Source of the DNA: a virus
Reading direction: 5' to 3' (one strand)
DNA length: 35,365 nt
Virus record (IMG/VR): IMGVR_UViG_3300029268_000065
Location: 1 to 35,365 of that record
Shown here: piece by piece, positions 1 to 35,365 of the stretch
Position numbering within the stretch: the first letter of the stretch is position 1
How the letters are laid out: each line of letters opens with the position of its first letter
The notes under the pieces: model-generated
Seen by the model: only the letters and a program-made list of their open reading frames with translations
What the model was told of the DNA's origin: nothing
Database searches by the model: none
Program-made: the position numbers and the translations under genes

Positions 1-119
1 AGAGCATTGATAGTCGTGTAATGCTTGACGAGGACGGCGCTGAAAAATTACTTGGTAAAGGAGATATGCTCTTTGCGAGTGACGCAGGCATTGAACGTTT
101 ACAAGGCTTTAGTTCTTAA
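1..119 (+). CDS. FtsK/SpoIIIE-type DNA translocase, C-terminal end (5' partial)
   Basis: An open frame enters from the left edge (first full codon at position 3) and stops with TAA at 117-119. The 38 residues read SIDSRVMLDEDGAEKLLGKG followed by DMLF and a short tail. This matches the last conserved block of FtsK/SpoIIIE motor domains (the 'SR.ILD..GAE.LLG.GDML' region after the Walker motifs). The protein ends a few residues later, so there is no winged-helix gamma domain of the kind that reads KOPS or SRS sequences. The Walker motifs lie outside the window. The gene at the right edge (33924 onward) ends at the start of an FtsK domain, so this is probably the tail of that same gene in a circular genome; this is inference. 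The replication gene starts 5 bases downstream. Confidence 0.8.
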   Translation, partial: SIDSRVMLDEDGAEKLLGKGDMLFASDAGIERLQGFSS

Positions 120-123
120 TCTT

Positions 124-984
124 ATGGCAAGAGGACGCATTATTGACGCTGTAATATCGCAAAGCAGAAAGGTGAACAGTGTGAGTGACCAAGCGGCATT
201 ATTGTTCACTTGGATACAGGCTCACACTGACGATTACGGGCGCATAGAGGGAGAAAGTGAGGATATTATGTTTCTTGTGGTTCCACGTAGAGGTTGGAAC
301 GCAGAGCAGGTTGAGAGTTACCTCAAGGAACTTTGGGAAATTGGTTTGCTTAAGAAGTATCAATGTGAAAATGGCAAAAGATACTTTGAAGTATATGCCT
401 TTAATGAACATCAGATATTCAGATCAGACCGAGGAAGAAAGGAAAAATACCCTATTCCAACCGAGTTTGACAACCAGTGGTATACCACTGACACCCAAGT
501 GGGAAAATTAAGTTCGGAAACTAAGTTAAGTATAAGTAAAGTTAAGTTAAGTAAAGTTAAGGTGAAGTCGAAAGGTGCCACTGGTAAACCAGTGACCACG
601 CACGCAAAGGTTGAGGAAGTTGTTAAAACTATCACACCAAAAGAAAAGGCAGGACAATTCTTTTCAGGTGTTGAGAGCCTTAAAAACAAACAAGATGTTC
701 CTTGGCTCCAAGAGTTCTTAAACGCTATTGCTCAAAAGAATAACAATGTATCTAAGGCTGCAATTTGGAATGAGATCAAAGCGTTTGCGAATTACTGGAC
801 GGAATTAACCCATACTGGATTAAAACAGCGTTGGGAATGCCAAAAAACGTTTGAAGTTGAGCGCAGATTGATAACTTGGTTCGCAAGAGCAGGTTTCAAG
901 GACTTTAACTCAACAGGATCCTTTGCAAGGTCGGACAAAGGAAAGAATATTATCGGGTTAGACGAGGACGAAAATGCAAACTAA
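124..984 (+). CDS. Phage replication organiser / helicase-loader-like protein
   Basis: A 286-residue protein starting MARGRIIDAVISQS. Residues 1-110 resemble the winged-helix N-terminal domain of phage replisome organisers and DnaD-like primosome proteins: a small basic start, a helical block (SVSDQAALLFTWIQAHTDDY), then FEVYAFNEHQIFRSDRGRKE. The middle is a Lys/Ser/Thr-rich linker (about residues 130-190). The C-terminal part (WLQEFLNAIAQ, IKAFANYWTELT) is helical and may contact helicase or ssDNA. I chose ATG 124 because the translocase upstream stops at 119; an upstream TTG at 25 would overlap it. The gene sits next to RecT and nuclease-translocase genes if the genome is circular, which supports a replication role. 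The exact family is not certain. Confidence 0.62.
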   Translation: MARGRIIDAVISQSRKVNSVSDQAALLFTWIQAHTDDYGRIEGESEDIMFLVVPRRGWNAEQVESYLKELWEIGLLKKYQCENGKRYFEVYAFNEHQIFRSDRGRKEKYPIPTEFDNQWYTTDTQVGKLSSETKLSISKVKLSKVKVKSKGATGKPVTTHAKVEEVVKTITPKEKAGQFFSGVESLKNKQDVPWLQEFLNAIAQKNNNVSKAAIWNEIKAFANYWTELTHTGLKQRWECQKTFEVERRLITWFARAGFKDFNSTGSFARSDKGKNIIGLDEDENAN

Positions 985-6677: not shown

Positions 6678-7151
6678 ATGTTGCGATATGACTTACGCTT
6701 TTGGGACACAAAGAACAAGGTAATGATCCTTGGGGCAGGAATGTCGCCAAATCAGTTGCCTATCGTTCAGCACGAGAATGGACGCCTTGAGGAGTTGCAG
6801 GGTGAGTTTGTCCCAATGCTCTGTACATATCAGAAAGCAACTAACGGGCTTATTTGGGAGGGAGACGTTATTGAGTGCGACGTGCCGTACTTTATAGCCC
6901 CTGACCTACCACCAACCTTTGTTAAGGCTCGTGGAGTAATGCAGTTCAATCAGAAACGAGGCTCGTTCACAGTAAACATTGCCTCAAGCCCTGAAACGCA
7001 GGGGCAAGAGTTTCAGGTTAAGAACTCAACCATTATTGGTTGTGCAGTCTCTAACCCCGAGCTATTACAAATTGACCACAAAAATTATGAAAACCAAAAC
7101 ACAAGCAAAGACACCGAGAAAGGTGCAGACAGTGGCAAAGGCACCGCCTAA
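6678..7151 (+). CDS. YopX-like protein
   Basis: A 157-residue protein with the plan of the YopX family, common in phages but of unknown function. It opens with a strand like 'R.WD...K.MI' (LRFWDTKNKVMILGAG). A middle block follows (NGLIWEGDVIECDVP, corresponding to 'G..IYEGDIV'). Near the end is TIIGCAVSNPELLQ, corresponding to 'VIGNIYENPELL'. The KNKVMIL segment is shared base for base with the gene at 2831. The 3' end overlaps the next gene by 65 bases. Confidence 0.7.
   Translation: MLRYDLRFWDTKNKVMILGAGMSPNQLPIVQHENGRLEELQGEFVPMLCTYQKATNGLIWEGDVIECDVPYFIAPDLPPTFVKARGVMQFNQKRGSFTVNIASSPETQGQEFQVKNSTIIGCAVSNPELLQIDHKNYENQNTSKDTEKGADSGKGTA
6710..6732 (+). repeat. Exact 23-base direct repeat, copy 2
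   Basis: Identical to 2989-3011, same reading frame in both genes. Here it encodes part of the conserved YopX N-terminal strand. Confidence 0.9.
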
Positions 7152-7404
7152 GTTAGACAAGGACGAAAGCACACGAATACACCGAGCAATCAATTGGGTT
7201 GTCTCAATCATTCTCATTGCGTTCGCTATTTGGAGTATCAACCTTAATGCAGAGAGCCGTGCGTATTTTACGCAGGCAGTTGCTATAATTGCAGAGACAG
7301 ACCACAAGCTGACTGAAATTAAGGCAAACGTTGAGGTGATCAAGAGCCTTTGTCAGCCGACAACCGTTGTCGTACCACAGACACCCATTGACGCCATTGA
7401 GTAA
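7087..7404 (+). CDS. Single-pass membrane protein
   Basis: A 105-residue protein. A basic, Pro-containing N terminus (residues 1-33) precedes one transmembrane segment (about 35-51, INWVVSIILIAFAIWSI). A helical, possibly coiled-coil external part follows (TDHKLTEIKANVEVIKS) and a Pro/Val-rich tail. Topology is probably N-in by the positive-inside rule. It overlaps the YopX-like gene and ends 3 bases before terL. A similar membrane plus coiled-coil plan occurs at 18372. It could be a lysis accessory or an envelope protein; there is no direct evidence for either. Confidence 0.55.
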   Translation: MKTKTQAKTPRKVQTVAKAPPKLDKDESTRIHRAINWVVSIILIAFAIWSINLNAESRAYFTQAVAIIAETDHKLTEIKANVEVIKSLCQPTTVVVPQTPIDAIE

Positions 7405-7407
7405 AAT

Positions 7408-8961
7408 ATGAGTAAAGACACCGTTAAAAAGCAAAAAGACCCGAAAGTTATACAGCGAGAGCCTGATATGACTGACGAGGAGTGGCGAGACTATCAACTG
7501 GAATTGTTGAGGCGTCTTGAACACGAGCGTTACCGATACTATGAGCCAACAGGTGTTGGTGAGGAGTTTATTGACGCCATTGCTTGCGGTGAGAACTTTA
7601 TCGTCCTGTATTCCGCAGGTAACGGAGTGGGTAAGACGGCAACAGGTGCCAACGTGCTTGCTCACCTCTTTTGGAATACAGGAGAGAATATCTACTTTGA
7701 GGGCAAGTTGTTCAAAGAGTTCCCGTTCAAGAAAAAGGGACGTATCATTTCCGATCCAACCAACCTCACAAAAAACATTATTCCCGAGCTTAAGTTTTGG
7801 TTTCCCGAGGGACGATACAAGACGAGCAAGGGTAACAAGACCTTTGAGAGTTTGTTTGAGACGGACACAGGTTGGGAGTTTGACCTTATGACCTATGAGC
7901 AAGACCCGAGAGAGTTTGAGGGTGTAACGCTCGGTTGGGCTTGGTTTGACGAACCGCCACCAGAGGCGATATTCAAAGCCACTGTATCCCGTATGCGTAA
8001 GGGAGGTATCTTGATCATTACAGCGACACCTCTTGCAGGTTCAGCGTACCTGTATGACGCCTTTGCCAAGGGTAATTACACGGTTGAGGTTACGAGTGAG
8101 GAGGGAGGCGTAACAGCCGAGTACGAACGTAAGGTTGCCTATATTGAGGCAGGTATTGAGAGCGCTTGTAAGACGCACGGGATCAGAGGACACCTTGAAC
8201 ACAAGGACATTATGAACATTGTTGCGGAGTATTCAGAGGAGGAGAAACAGGCTCGTATTTACGGTAAGTTCCAACACCTTGTTGGGCTTGTATTTAAGCG
8301 TTGGAATAGGAAAATCCACGTCTTGAGACCGTTTGACATCAACGAGGAGGATTACGTTGTTTGGAATATGCTTGATCCTCACCCGAGAACCAACGACGCT
8401 GTTTTGTGGGTTGCCATTGATCGCAAGGGACGTAAGTTTGTGATTGACGAGCTTTGGATCAAGTGTGAGAACGGTACCAAGGAGCTTGCACAACGTATCA
8501 AGAAAAAGGACAGTCAGTACCGTGTCGTTAAGCACCTCATTGATCCGTCAGCCTCTATCGTTAATCAGCACGACGAGGACGGTAAGAGCCTCACAGATCG
8601 CTTGAGAGACTTTGGTTTGTCCTATGAGGACGCAAGTAAGAACCGTGCTATGTCCAACAGGCGTATTGAGGACGCACTTGCGTATACCAAGCTAGACGGG
8701 GGCGAGGGTGAAATGATTAAGGCGCCTGAACTGTATGTATTTGAGAACTGCCAACAGTTGATTTGGGAGATTGAACACTGGCGTTGGCAGGAGAATAAGG
8801 GGCGCTCAAGTGAGACCAAGAACGCACCTAACAAGCCGATTGATAAGGACGATCACCTTATTGAGGACTTGGGACGTTGTTTGATCGCAGAGCCTCAATG
8901 GTTCCCTAAGCCAAAAAAGGTCAACCAACACCAGTCAATCAGCTTTGATCCATATGAGTAA
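7408..8961 (+). CDS. terL: Terminase large subunit
   Basis: A 517-residue packaging motor and nuclease. The Walker A motif SAGNGVGKT is at residues 69-77. The Walker B is in LGWAWFDE, with Asp181 and Glu182. The coupling motif TATP is at 205-208. The C-terminal RNase H-like nuclease is suggested by acidic positions in NMLDPHPRTNDAVLW followed by FVIDELW, in HLIDPSAS, and near the end in DDHLIEDLG. It pumps DNA into the prohead through the portal and cuts concatemers. It ends the packaging operon that began with terS. Length is normal for the family. Confidence 0.93.
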   Translation: MSKDTVKKQKDPKVIQREPDMTDEEWRDYQLELLRRLEHERYRYYEPTGVGEEFIDAIACGENFIVLYSAGNGVGKTATGANVLAHLFWNTGENIYFEGKLFKEFPFKKKGRIISDPTNLTKNIIPELKFWFPEGRYKTSKGNKTFESLFETDTGWEFDLMTYEQDPREFEGVTLGWAWFDEPPPEAIFKATVSRMRKGGILIITATPLAGSAYLYDAFAKGNYTVEVTSEEGGVTAEYERKVAYIEAGIESACKTHGIRGHLEHKDIMNIVAEYSEEEKQARIYGKFQHLVGLVFKRWNRKIHVLRPFDINEEDYVVWNMLDPHPRTNDAVLWVAIDRKGRKFVIDELWIKCENGTKELAQRIKKKDSQYRVVKHLIDPSASIVNQHDEDGKSLTDRLRDFGLSYEDASKNRAMSNRRIEDALAYTKLDGGEGEMIKAPELYVFENCQQLIWEIEHWRWQENKGRSSETKNAPNKPIDKDDHLIEDLGRCLIAEPQWFPKPKKVNQHQSISFDPYE

Positions 8962-30071: not shown

Positions 30072-31160
30072 ATGCCTGAAATCACTGAAAAAAACACAGG
30101 CTTACTCATTGTCCCACTATCCCCTAAAGCCTATCTTGCAGGTATAGAAACTGGTATTGCCTTTGAGGAACGATTGCCCAAAGGAGACTGGTTTAATTTC
30201 TCGTCAACTGACGAACGACAAAGCACGTCCAAGTACGACACAATGAGTTGTACAACTTTTTCTGCACTCAATTCAATTGAAATGCAGATCAATTGGCTTA
30301 TAAGAAACAATAAGCTAAGTGCAGAGATCATTGATCGTCTTGAGGACTTGGGCTTTTTTGATAGCAACGGAAAGTTTAACTGCTCTGACTGGTTCACGGC
30401 TGTAATGTCAGGTACCACAAAGGGCGGTAACGATTTCGGTTCTGTTTGGGATAGTATCCGCAAGCACGGACTGTTACCTCAACCAGACGGATACAATCCT
30501 GACGATTTTAATTCAACAGAGGAATGGCTTGACCCAACAAGAGTAACCACAAAGCAAAAAGAAACTGCGCTTAAGTTCCTTGAGCTTTTTGAGGTTATGT
30601 ATGAGTTTATTTTATGGGGACAGTCAGACCCGAATGTTATTGCTGAACACCTAAAGCACGCACCAATTCACATTGCAACGCCAGTGTGCGGAGGTTGGGG
30701 CAACGAAAGCGTTGTACATAAATGTGGCATTGAACAGGTGCAACACGCAACTTGCTCTGACGGTACCGAAAAGGACGTTGCCACTTACACATACGATCAT
30801 TACACCCCATTTCATAAAAAACTCGCTTGGGATTACCCGATACCTTGGGCAGTTAAAGGCGTGCTGTCAGTAAAGACACCAAAACCAAAGACACCGTTGC
30901 CTCAATACACGTTCACTAAGAGCTTGCGCAAGGGAGATCGTGGCACTGACGTTGCAATGCTACAAAAGGCACTCAAGGCTCTCGGGTTCTTTAAGTTGGA
31001 TTACACAACTGACTATTTCGGATATTACACCGAGCAAGCTGTTAAGAACTTCCAAGCGGAATATGCTGACGAGGTTTTGAAACCTTGGGGGATCACATTA
31101 CCAACAGGATTTTTTGGTTCAACCTCAATCAAGAAACTTAACGAACTGCTTAAATCCTAG
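30072..31160 (+). CDS. Endolysin-like cysteine peptidase with peptidoglycan-binding domain
   Basis: A 362-residue protein. The N-terminal 270 residues look like a papain-type fold: YDTMSCTTFSALN with Cys60 as likely nucleophile, and His candidates at 200 (IHIATPVCGGWG) and 243 (YTYDHYTPFH). The C terminus is a peptidoglycan-binding type 1 domain (LRKGDRGTDVAMLQKALKAL followed by GFF, then YFGYYTEQAVKNFQAEY). It would cut peptide stems of the wall after binding it. No signal peptide is visible, so release by the holin is expected. The catalytic assignment is tentative. The 3' end overlaps the opposing LAGLIDADG gene by 11 bases. Confidence 0.65.
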   Translation: MPEITEKNTGLLIVPLSPKAYLAGIETGIAFEERLPKGDWFNFSSTDERQSTSKYDTMSCTTFSALNSIEMQINWLIRNNKLSAEIIDRLEDLGFFDSNGKFNCSDWFTAVMSGTTKGGNDFGSVWDSIRKHGLLPQPDGYNPDDFNSTEEWLDPTRVTTKQKETALKFLELFEVMYEFILWGQSDPNVIAEHLKHAPIHIATPVCGGWGNESVVHKCGIEQVQHATCSDGTEKDVATYTYDHYTPFHKKLAWDYPIPWAVKGVLSVKTPKPKTPLPQYTFTKSLRKGDRGTDVAMLQKALKALGFFKLDYTTDYFGYYTEQAVKNFQAEYADEVLKPWGITLPTGFFGSTSIKKLNELLKS

Positions 31161-31614
31161 AGGCTTGAAAGCCGTTTATTTTTCTTATTCTTTGCACGCA
31201 ATCCTCTCTAAAACCAAGACTGTCTTGAGAGATAACTTTTGACCTGCAAGGGTTCTCGTTTCTATATTCAGAAGTGTGATTGATATATTCAATAAATATT
31301 TTTGCTTGTTCTTTTTTTGTCCTTAAAAAGGGTAATATCATAATCAAAAAGTCTCTTGCGTTTTTACCGTGTAGATACCAAATGTGAGTTATTTTTCTGT
31401 TAGTTGCTCTTGCTTTCTTTCGTTTTGAGAGTGAACCACCAAACTGGTTATGTAAATCCTCAAGTAATTGAGTGTCTGTCATTTCAATACTAACTCTTGA
31501 TGTATAAACAATACTTTTTTGACCGTATTGTGTATATGGTTTGTGGCGAGTGATTGTTACCCAACCCTCACCGTCAAATAGACCTGCAACATATTCTAGC
31601 GGTATAATATTCAT
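31150..31614 (-). CDS. LAGLIDADG homing endonuclease
   Basis: A 154-residue protein on the minus strand. YVAGLFDGEGWVTI near residues 8-21 is the LAGLIDADG motif helix and following strand. Later segments (IEMTDTQLLEDLHNQFGGSL, then WYLHGKNARDFLIMILPFL) fit the rest of a single-motif enzyme, which acts as a dimer. It is free-standing, not inside an intron or intein. It lies between the peptidase and amidase genes. Its start codon is the left half of the palindrome CATATG, the right half being the amidase start. Its promoter must therefore lie inside the amidase gene or it is transcribed from afar. It lacks GATG, like its neighbours. Confidence 0.85.
   Translation of the reverse strand: MNIIPLEYVAGLFDGEGWVTITRHKPYTQYGQKSIVYTSRVSIEMTDTQLLEDLHNQFGGSLSKRKKARATNRKITHIWYLHGKNARDFLIMILPFLRTKKEQAKIFIEYINHTSEYRNENPCRSKVISQDSLGFREDCVQRIRKINGFQASRI
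31603..31608 (+). promoter_or_regulatory. -10 element for the amidase gene
   Basis: Perfect TATAAT six bases before ATG 31615, inside the opposing endonuclease gene. It predicts a leaderless amidase transcript. No clear -35. Confidence 0.45.
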
Positions 31615-32171: not shown

Positions 32172-32195
32172 AAAAACCCCACTCGGGGTTTTTTT
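32172..32195. terminator. Bidirectional intrinsic terminator
   Basis: AAAAACCCC (32172-32180) pairs perfectly with GGGGTTTTT (32185-32193) around ACTC, with a T run to 32195. The A run gives a T run on the other strand, so it serves both the amidase gene and the opposing gene whose stop is at 32194-32196. Confidence 0.92.
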
Positions 32196-32544
32196 ATACT
32201 TCAACTATTTTGATACCGTATTGCGCTTCAACGAGTTTCTTTTTGAGGCGGTATACATCAGTGCGCACACCTTTGACATCAATAATTTCCTCCCTGCCGT
32301 CGGCATATTTCACACGAAAGTCGGCGAGATATTTACAAATCTTTTTCTCGTTCAAAACAATTTGAAACGGCACCTGACATTCATACTCCACTACTCGATC
32401 ACGGGGGGTGGTGGCTTTGCGTTGCCAATCCAACTGCATTGCGTATTCTGCCTCCTTTTTGGACATAAACTTTACGCCCTTATATTCCGTTTGCACGTTG
32501 CGATATTTGGAGAGTGTTTTTGGTATGACCAAATAATTTTTCAT
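32194..32544 (-). CDS. DUF1064-like putative nuclease
   Basis: A 116-residue protein from ATG 32544 (a second ATG six bases upstream at 32550 is possible). It has the DUF1064 plan: KYRNVQTEYKGVKFMSKKEA followed by EYAMQL, then EYECQVPFQIVLNE, CKYLADFRVKYADGREEIID with VKG, and a final RLKKKLVEAQYGIKIVEV. DFRV...G..EIIDVKG is the PD-(D/E)XK-like active-site pattern, with Asp, Asp/Glu and Lys. Members are phage endonucleases, perhaps junction-resolving. The -10 next to the start predicts leaderless mRNA beginning at about 32544. It is divergent from the recombination genes, across the putative origin. Confidence 0.72.
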   Translation of the reverse strand: MKNYLVIPKTLSKYRNVQTEYKGVKFMSKKEAEYAMQLDWQRKATTPRDRVVEYECQVPFQIVLNEKKICKYLADFRVKYADGREEIIDVKGVRTDVYRLKKKLVEAQYGIKIVEV

Positions 32545-32550
32545 ACACAT

Positions 32551-33142: not shown

Positions 33143-34009
33143 ATGACTGCAAAAGACACTAGCAAGGACAGTGGACAACAGGTTGCACTCGCACCGATTG
33201 ACCAGTTCCGTGTCAGCCTCCAAAGAGAACACCAGAAATCAATCGAGAACTTTTTTAGAGGAGACAAGGAAAAGGTAATGAAGTTTATGAGTTCAATCGT
33301 CTACTCACTCAAAAAGACGCCGAAGTTACTTGACTGCGAAAAAAGCACACTCATAAATGCCTTTATGACTTGTGCGGAATATGAATTGTACCCGTCAAGC
33401 GTATCAGGAGAGGCATACGTGCTGCCTTACGGAAAAGAGGCACAATTCCAACTCGGGTATCAAGGGGTTATTACACTTCTTTACCGAGCAGGAATGCAAA
33501 ACATCACAGCCGAGATCGTGTATGCAAATGACGATTTTGATTATCAGGCAGGATTAAATCCAACACTCACACACCGTCCAAAGGTATTTGAGGATAGAGG
33601 AAAGCCAATCGGAGTTTACGCAGTTGCAACTCTATCAAGCGGAGAGAAACAGTTTAAGGTTCTTGGAGAGAAAGACGTAATGAAGTTCAAGGAGTTTTCA
33701 AAGAGCAAAACATCAGAATACAGCCCTTGGAACCCAAAGAATGACCCTGAACTCTCAATGTGGAGAAAGACCGCAATTAAGCAATTAGCAAAGTTCTTAC
33801 CAAAAAACAGCACCATTTATGAGGCGTTTGAGAAAGACAACAAGGACAGTCGCATTAGTGACGCAAAGAACCTTGCTGAAAACAGTGACCTTAAAATGGG
33901 TAACTTATTAAAAGAAAATAATTATGACCACAACCAAGAAGTCAACGACAACGAAAAGGAAATCCAAGTTGAAGAAGTTGACACTGCCGACAGTAACAAA
34001 AAGAGTTAG
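33143..34009 (+). CDS. recT: RecT-family single-strand annealing protein
   Basis: A 288-residue recombinase. Diagnostic stretches are CEKSTLINAFMTCAEYELYP, AYVLPYGKEAQFQLGYQGVI followed by TLLYRAG (the RecT 'PQIGYRG.I.L..R.G' block), and NDPELSMWRKTAIKQLAKFL (the 'M..KT..K.L.K.LP' block). RecT coats ssDNA and anneals complementary strands, usually with a partner exonuclease. The next gene supplies a PD-(D/E)XK nuclease and overlaps its 3' end by 86 bases, so the pair is a recombination unit. The last 50 residues are acidic and probably flexible. Confidence 0.93.
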   Translation: MTAKDTSKDSGQQVALAPIDQFRVSLQREHQKSIENFFRGDKEKVMKFMSSIVYSLKKTPKLLDCEKSTLINAFMTCAEYELYPSSVSGEAYVLPYGKEAQFQLGYQGVITLLYRAGMQNITAEIVYANDDFDYQAGLNPTLTHRPKVFEDRGKPIGVYAVATLSSGEKQFKVLGEKDVMKFKEFSKSKTSEYSPWNPKNDPELSMWRKTAIKQLAKFLPKNSTIYEAFEKDNKDSRISDAKNLAENSDLKMGNLLKENNYDHNQEVNDNEKEIQVEEVDTADSNKKS

Positions 34010-35365
34010 AGACGAGGACTTGGCTTGTGAGTACGTTAATTTTCCAGTCCCACATTACAGTTACTCGTCACTCACAAAGTTTGGTTCTGATCCGTTTATG
34101 TTCAAGGTGAACTATATCAACGGAGACCAAATTGAGACAGTAAGTTCACCTGCAAATGTTCTCGGGCGCACAATACACAAAGCACTTGAGACATACCTTG
34201 GTGGAAACAAGGACGTTCCAGTACCAAACAATGACGGTGAGGCAATCAAGATTGCACACGCAACAGCACTTGAGTACTTGAACGGATACTCTGACGGTTT
34301 TATTGAGTACAACACACTCGTTGCGAACCGTGCGAAATTGGAGGAACGATTTGCATTTGTATTCTTTGGTTACATCAAAGAGTTCAATTACAAAAAGTTT
34401 GTCAAAGAGATTGTACTTGTTGAAAAAATGCTCAAGCACAAGATCGAGGTTGACGGTAAAGTTTTACCAGTACCGCTTAAGGGAGCAGCAGACCTCGTAT
34501 ATCGAGACTACAAAGACAGATTGATAATGAGAGACCACAAAATAACCTCTCGTTACTCTGACCCCGAGGCGATTGACGGTGCAAAACTCATTCAGGCAGC
34601 AGTTAATTACTTTCTTGTTGCAGCAGAGACAGGCGAAAAGCCTTACTCAATGATATATGCGGAGTTTAAGATAACACCGAATGCAGACGGTTCACCACAA
34701 ATGCGAGAGTTTGAAATCGTATTTGAGGAACACCCTCTCATTTTCGAGTTCTTTTATCGCTACTATTACGACGTAACAGACGCATTGCTCGGCAATCAAG
34801 TGTTTGTTCCAAACGTGTACGCAATGTATGACAAAGAGGTTTCAATCCTCGCTTACATTCACCGCTTGGATCAGGACGAGGCACGAGAGAAAGCGTTTAA
34901 GAAAAACAAAGTTAGCAACATTACTGACTTTCTAAAGAAACGAATACAGAAAGACGGTGCAATGAAACAGTACCTTGAGACCGTAACAGCAAAGTTCGTT
35001 TCAGCAGAAACATTAAATTATAAGAATATGACAACAGAGGAAAAAATCAAAATGAAACTAGCCGAATACGGGCTTGCTGTTGAGTTTGACAGCAAGGTGC
35101 AAGGCAACTCGGTTGATCTATACCGATATAACCCCTCCATTGGTGTCAAAATGGCACGCCTACGCAATTTTGTTGATGATGTTGAGCAAGTTACTGGAAT
35201 CAGTGGTATTCGCGTCCTAGCACCTATTCCCGGCTCAGAATTGGTAGGTTTTGAGATACCAAAGGAAGTCAGAACATTTCCAAATTTACCAAGTGAGGGA
35301 GTTAGTCAGTTTAAATTAGCTATTGGCCAAACAGTCAATGGAGAAGTAAGAAGATTTGATATTAG
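33924..35365 (+). CDS. PD-(D/E)XK (RecB/Cas4-like) nuclease fused to an FtsK-type translocase (3' partial)
   Basis: 480 residues run off the right edge. After a basic start, residues 40-240 form a RecB/Cas4-like nuclease: HYSYSSLTKFGSDPFMFKVN, then GRTIHKALE with His85, GAADLV with Asp190, MRDHKIT with Asp204 and Lys206, and LIQAAVNYFLV with Gln224, the complete PD-(D/E)XK set. Residues 240-365 are helical. From Met369 the same frame reads EYGLAVEFDSKVQGNSVDLY, IGVKMARLRNFVDDVEQVTG, IRVLAPIPGSELVGFEIPKE and SQFKLAIGQTVNGEVRRFDI, the region just before Walker A in FtsK/SpoIIIE. An internal ATG at 35028 could also make the FtsK part alone. Start ATG 33924 overlaps recT by 86 bases. Confidence 0.8.
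   Translation, partial: MTTTKKSTTTKRKSKLKKLTLPTVTKRVRDEDLACEYVNFPVPHYSYSSLTKFGSDPFMFKVNYINGDQIETVSSPANVLGRTIHKALETYLGGNKDVPVPNNDGEAIKIAHATALEYLNGYSDGFIEYNTLVANRAKLEERFAFVFFGYIKEFNYKKFVKEIVLVEKMLKHKIEVDGKVLPVPLKGAADLVYRDYKDRLIMRDHKITSRYSDPEAIDGAKLIQAAVNYFLVAAETGEKPYSMIYAEFKITPNADGSPQMREFEIVFEEHPLIFEFFYRYYYDVTDALLGNQVFVPNVYAMYDKEVSILAYIHRLDQDEAREKAFKKNKVSNITDFLKKRIQKDGAMKQYLETVTAKFVSAETLNYKNMTTEEKIKMKLAEYGLAVEFDSKVQGNSVDLYRYNPSIGVKMARLRNFVDDVEQVTGISGIRVLAPIPGSELVGFEIPKEVRTFPNLPSEGVSQFKLAIGQTVNGEVRRFDI

Follow-up and report, generated by a model that had tools for sequence, protein, structure and literature searches.

We found that a nuclease of the RecB/RecE type and an FtsK-type DNA translocase are joined in one reading frame in a set of phage genes, and that these genes lie next to a gene for a RecT-like annealing protein wherever the flank can be read. 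The protein consists of a PD-(D/E)XK domain, a short helical linker and an FtsK alpha–beta motor without the membrane and gamma domains. It is probably the exonuclease that partners RecT in a phage recombination pair, and its FtsK pump would feed DNA into the nuclease.

The DNA analysed (hereafter the window) is the whole of IMG/VR virus record IMGVR_UViG_3300029268_000065, a complete record of 35,365 bases. It encodes a tailed-phage gene set of terminase subunits, portal, major head protein, tail and lysis genes and a replication initiator, with the terminase large subunit at 7408–8961 (phrog_2, E 3e-21). The fusion gene begins inside recT at the right edge and its 3′ end lies at the left edge (Table 1). 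The overlap with recT, which the first-pass annotation had pointed out, is 86 nt long (33924–34009); its two frames encode the C terminus of RecT and the Lys/Arg-rich, LPxV-bearing tail of the fusion. In the related loci L001, L002, L063, L066 and others, too, K/R-rich residues precede LPxV or a motif close to it, and this tail might serve for docking to RecT or DNA.

Table 1. Features around recT and the fusion gene, in window positions; residue numbers are those of the fusion protein. The exact start codon of the replication initiation gene was chosen by us, and this start overlaps the end of the fusion gene by a few nt.
Feature	Position	Strand	Evidence
recT, single-strand annealing protein, 288 aa	33143–34009	+	PF03837 E 1.7e-35; phrog_148 E 2.4e-61; TIGR00616 above cut-off
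Fusion gene, 5′ part, 480 codons (480-aa frame 33924–35363), open at right edge	33924–35365	+	complete 685-aa homologue L001:6977–9034
Basic N-terminal tail of fusion, ~39 codons, mostly within recT overlap	33924–34040	+	11 K/R and 3 D/E among residues 1–33
PD-(D/E)XK nuclease domain of fusion, residues 45–260; catalytic H85, D190, D204, K206, Q224	34056–34703	+	PF12705 (PDDEXK_1) E 5e-11
Helical linker between nuclease and motor, ~residues 301–365	34824–35018	+	predicted helices 304–357
FtsK alpha domain of fusion, residues 366–446	35019–35261	+	PF17854 E 3.4e-12
127-nt tract equal to end of contig IMGVR_UViG_3300029268_000072 (L065)	35239–35365	.	exact identity; assembly fork, probable inter-phage exchange point
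Fusion gene, 3′ end: end of FtsK beta motor, without gamma domain, stop 117–119	3–119	+	phrog_1358 E 3.9e-6; L001 codons 648–685, 80% nt identity
Replication initiation protein gene, next after fusion	115–984	+	phrog_1408 E 3.5e-11; counterpart L001:9040–9915

The fusion gene at the two ends of the window

Of the FtsK part, the window contains the alpha domain and the final codons but no more; the right-hand frame is cut off before Walker A, and no Walker motif lies inside the window. Both pieces are found in one 685-amino-acid frame in L001 (IMGVR_UViG_3300008255_000076), a relative 80% identical to the window. Between the counterparts of the two pieces, L001 carries Walker A (GSSGSGKS), Walker B (FVIIDEFAD) and ATQR. 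Its fusion C terminus is nearly equal to the translation of window 3–119, SIDSRVMLDEDGAEKLLGKGDMLFASDAGIERLQGFSS*, which matches the phage FtsK family phrog_1358, and a replication gene (MARGRII...) lies directly downstream of the fusion gene in both genomes. Because L001 has a single frame, the same C terminus and the same next gene, the window contains both ends of one gene, lacking by L001 positions codons 485–647 (~163 codons, ~485 nt). The motor core of the window copy, with intact Walker A and B, is inferred from relatives.

Several proposals of the first-pass annotation were borne out by this comparison. One frame does run through Walker A and B to the left-edge residues in L001, although not in the window itself; the complete homologues have neither a stop nor a frameshift between the nuclease and FtsK parts; and in the relatives the frame continues with its Walker motifs. 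The left-edge frame is likewise a matching FtsK end without a gamma domain, and PF09397 has no match in the record.

Over its last 127 nt the window matches the end of L065 exactly, whereas upstream of this tract the two contigs share only ~60% identity. The usual largest k-mer of SPAdes-type assemblers is 127, and thus the two contigs end at a common node. No third contig carrying the same tract was found. Given the exact suffix in common with L065, we rejected a physical genome end at the right edge in favour of an assembly fork. The pattern suggests that two phages, diverged elsewhere, have recently exchanged the motor part at the boundary between nuclease and motor.

Nuclease and motor domains

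Profile searches found both halves of the protein above cut-off. PF12705 scored 43–59 bits against a cut-off of 22 in the window, L001, L002 and L010, and PF01580 and PF17854 exceeded their cut-offs in L001, L002 and L010. In the window frame, the PDDEXK_1 and FtsK_alpha matches both lie above the Pfam curated cut-offs, the latter at residues 366–446, after the nuclease, where the region preceding the FtsK/SpoIIIE motor had been proposed.

All 20 nuclease domains in the alignment have His85, Asp190, Asp204 and Lys206, and likewise Glu167, Glu247, Lys249, Asn253, Asp255 and Gln259; Gln224 is present in 19 and absent from L002. The catalytic residues of the site originally called RecB/Cas4-like therefore stand, but ‘Cas4-like’ is a loose term for it: the Cas4/AddB cysteine cluster is absent, with no conserved set of cysteines among the 20 domains and no cysteine at all in four of them. 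As a profile against the PDB, the nuclease alignment had no significant sequence match, and the structural matches came from a fold search. An AlphaFold2 model of the window nuclease with its linker (pLDDT 84) matched AdnA (Z 15.2), AddB (Z 14.7) and RecE (Z 14.1), which makes the earlier comparison with RecBCD and AddAB a reasonable one. Between the window and L001, dN/dS was ~0.09 for the nuclease and ~0.03 for the linker (dN 0.036, dS 1.12), and these ratios show that the fusion is under purifying selection. The nuclease tree requires three changes between fused and unfused states and marginally rejects a single fused clade (p-AU 0.045), which would fit either loss of the motor or repeated fusion.

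Against the FtsK alpha–beta motors of E. coli and P. aeruginosa, the motor model scored Z 33 with an r.m.s.d. of 2.2–2.7 Å over ~311 residues, and against HerA it scored Z ~20. AlphaFold2 gave the full L001 protein a pLDDT of 75 and a pTM of 0.48 with low relative-domain confidence, so that the model does not predict how the domains lie relative to one another. Walker A, Walker B and an ATQ sensor were found by pattern in 17 records. No SF1 helicase domain was detected in the fusion at the Pfam cut-off. Complete fusion proteins end ~15–25 residues past the GxGDM motif, and the gamma domain (PF09397) had no match in eight of nine records, the window record included. In L066 (record G897), an FtsK gamma domain has a small frame of its own (6871–7357; PF09397, E 1.1e-25), which lies ~4 kb beyond the 3′ side of the fusion. 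An A-run apparently puts it a single frame-step away from an upstream frame of 116 aa; this domain could act in trans, or the arrangement may reflect a sequencing frameshift. In a small comparison set with six other FtsK motors, the fused motors formed one group with a support of 100/100, and their separation from these six suggests that the motor has been kept over a long divergence.

Distribution and linkage to RecT

Initial IMG/VR scans with profiles built from two or three sequences returned already-known contigs only. Nuclease-only profiles, chosen so that ordinary FtsK proteins would not flood the search, retrieved 10 and then 22 virus loci together with bacterial draft genomes, and a full-length profile retrieved the first bacterial draft genome with the fusion. 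After removal of duplicates, nuclease and FtsK share one frame in 25 distinct records, comprising 21 virus contigs (the window included) and four bacterial draft genomes; a few members are cut by contig ends, and L056, which has undetermined bases at the nuclease–FtsK junction, was left undecided. With this many distinct records, we rejected a chance or artefactual fusion. The claim that a nuclease is tethered in one chain to an FtsK-type motor beside RecT, without a gamma domain, therefore holds for the nearest complete relative and across these records overall.

A RecT-like annealing gene adjoins the fusion in 24 of the 24 loci with a readable flank, a count that leaves aside L092, where the flank is not readable. 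The neighbour was detected by the RecT profile in most loci, by PF03837 in L078 (E 7e-37), and by RecT-like PHROGs in L077, L082 and L053. It usually lies upstream, overlapping the fusion gene or within 10 nt of it in most loci, at ~430 nt in L058/L059 and 356 nt in L076, and it lies downstream in L054 and L055. Gene order thus varies while the linkage to RecT is kept. Unfused relatives of the nuclease adjoin other annealing proteins: ERF (L090), Sak4 (L093) and, for a distant relative, a Rad52-like protein (L024). Three small genomes carry stand-alone chromosomal copies of the nuclease (L020, L021 and L022), with no obvious annealing gene alongside.

Among the cultured phages of INPHARED, no record covered 80% of the fusion and the nuclease alone had no match; a plasmid search matched the FtsK part alone and gave no fusion. 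Of the bacterial FtsK matches in human faecal ‘phage’ records, the four that we read were ordinary FtsK proteins with membrane-like N-terminal segments and not fusions. Among predicted structures of viral proteins the closest is BFVD entry A0A8S5RDL0 (virus sp. ctkyY8, 400 aa), whose name says no more than PD-(D/E)XK nuclease. The contig that carries L010 (genome G001) is 188 kb long and belongs to a bacterial draft genome of ~0.7 Mb; from reading the sequences, we take the neighbour of L010 to be secA and those of L054 to be ftsW-like and murG-like. Genomes in a GTDB sample of the phylum of G001 span roughly 0.5–2 Mb, and such bacterial carriers would be consistent with Patescibacteria. A Saccharibacteria 16S probe sequence had no match, and the draft genomes contained no usable 16S.

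Proposed function, alternatives and known systems

The nuclease is attached at the alpha side of the motor, the place of the membrane domain in cellular FtsK. FtsK translocates DNA from the beta ring to the alpha ring (PMC9410874), and thus, if the motor works as FtsK does, DNA would be delivered to the nuclease, much as HerA drives double-stranded DNA toward the NurA active site (PMC12977600). We propose that six chains would assemble an FtsK-type ring around double-stranded DNA, either where it is broken or at an end arising in replication or packaging. Such a ring would pump DNA from the beta side to the alpha side and into the nuclease, which would degrade one strand processively, and RecT, the product of the overlapping gene, would coat and anneal the remaining 3′ single strand. 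Such a product is likely given that RecT is the constant neighbour and, by analogy, that bacterial NurA–HerA yields a recombinogenic 3′ tail (PMC9960219). The enzyme may be likened to HerA–NurA or AddAB, but as a single polypeptide without a strand-separating helicase.

Some observations count against resection. An FtsK-type pump keeps DNA double-stranded, which would leave strand separation at the nuclease to the nuclease domain itself or to the DNA end, and one HerA–NurA was reported to cut both strands and judged an unlikely resection enzyme (PMC12977600). A stand-alone exonuclease suffices for ordinary phages, and the resection reading does not explain what the pump would add. The main rival, which we consider unlikely, builds on proposals for T. 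kodakarensis HerA–NurA and for DndH/SspH-type defence proteins: here the pump would drive double-stranded DNA into a nuclease that cuts both strands, degrading host or competing phage DNA. This would fit the cleavage of both strands by TkoHerA–NurA (PMC12977600), the make-up of DndH, in which a restriction nuclease is combined with an FtsK motor that was captured and that in some clades includes the alpha domain (PMC10853773), and PADLOC matches of our motor to the defence proteins SspH (E 5e-37) and Mad8. However, these matches are limited to the motor, the five neighbouring window genes that we tested had no match to any defence model, and the fusion has a RecT-like neighbour at every readable locus, just as its unfused nuclease relatives accompany annealing proteins. 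An attack on host DNA, raised by the first-pass annotation, gained no support, as we found no evidence for it.

Bacterial FtsK functions in dimer resolution, and a motor for genome maintenance, aligning or resolving phage concatemers or dimers while the nuclease trims or cuts, would agree with the separate gamma-type domain encoded in L066. We nevertheless regard this role as improbable: the fusion itself has no gamma domain and ends soon after the beta motor, no Xer system was identified alongside it, and the window encodes a terminase. The suggestion of concatemer resolution made earlier is not supported, for the same lack of a gamma domain. Packaging was rejected as the role of the motor because the phage, with its own terminase, would not need it for this. 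Slightly more improbable still is a role of the FtsK part as a vestigial tether or oligomerization scaffold on what is effectively a stand-alone RecE-type exonuclease. The unfused relatives do pair with annealing proteins, which agrees with this, but the ATPase motifs are kept across deeply diverged motors, and the single well-supported group of fused motors argues for long retention.

We thus favour a resection enzyme working with RecT, and its parts are already known. In RecE–RecT and lambda Exo–Beta, a PD-(D/E)XK exonuclease gene likewise adjoins the gene for an annealing protein, and RecE is among the nearest folds, but those exonucleases stand alone with no translocase. One feature of a RecET/Red-type two-gene module, a RecT-family gene beside a PD-(D/E)XK nuclease, is present at all readable loci. 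HerA–NurA also combines an FtsK/HerA-class ring motor with a nuclease, HerA pushing double-stranded DNA into NurA (PMC12977600); it is made of two proteins and NurA belongs to another nuclease family, whereas the fusion is a single chain with a PF12705 nuclease and a motor nearer to FtsK than to HerA. AddAB, AdnAB and RecBCD couple a RecB-type nuclease to a DNA motor as well, although theirs are SF1 helicases. Fusions of PF12705 nucleases, the same superfamily, to UvrD helicases are known; there too the motor is of the SF1 type, and FtsK is not mentioned in that survey (PMC5704561). DndH/SspH proteins resemble the fusion in having a nuclease and an FtsK-type motor in one chain, some with FtsK alpha (PMC10853773), but theirs is a restriction-type nuclease in a far larger REase–DAM–FtsK chain, in a Dnd/Ssp context with no RecT. 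Mycobacteriophage Thibault gp178, a stand-alone phage FtsK-like translocase, shows 34% identity; it has no nuclease in its chain, and a Ku-like protein rather than RecT nearby.

A full-text literature search, with most subscription papers outside its scope, found no published description of a RecT-linked nuclease–FtsK fusion. A RecET-type module whose exonuclease gained an FtsK pump therefore appears to be a new combination. There is an even chance that such fusions make up a class of their own among phage recombination machines. In this class, a ring pump derived from FtsK and an exonuclease of the RecE/RecB type would work as a single ATP-driven enzyme that resects ends and is dedicated to RecT; it would be widespread among uncultivated phages (some of them integrated in small-genome bacteria) and would have evolved separately from RecBCD/AddAB and HerA–NurA. 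Many little-known bacterial viruses carry the fusion beside RecT, where it probably trims broken ends for RecT recombination. Phage annealing proteins and exonucleases are the basis of recombineering; a partner with a built-in pump for double-stranded DNA would add a third way of powering end resection to those of SF1 helicase–nucleases and HerA–NurA, and its one-chain format would be the simplest possible. It raises the testable question of what pumping double-stranded DNA adds to exonuclease resection for an annealing protein. The fusion also adds a recombination system from phages hardly studied so far, with some relatives in bacterial draft genomes no larger than 1 Mb, as is typical of groups in which genetic manipulation is difficult.

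Two other nuclease genes lie near recT on the minus strand of the window, one of the HNH endonuclease type (31150–31614; PHROG) and one of the Holliday-junction-resolvase type (32194–32550; phrog_190, E 1e-33). A stretch of ~200 nt at 1985–2190 is near-identical to L001, exactly so over 89 nt (2011–2099), although the flanking genes are only ~75–80% alike. Rfam had no match for it, and it showed no sign of an RNA fold. It contains a perfect DnaA box (2015–2023), TTATCCACA, and the inverted repeats GCCGTATA/TATACGGC, and at ~1 kb from the replication initiator gene it is a candidate for the phage replication origin.
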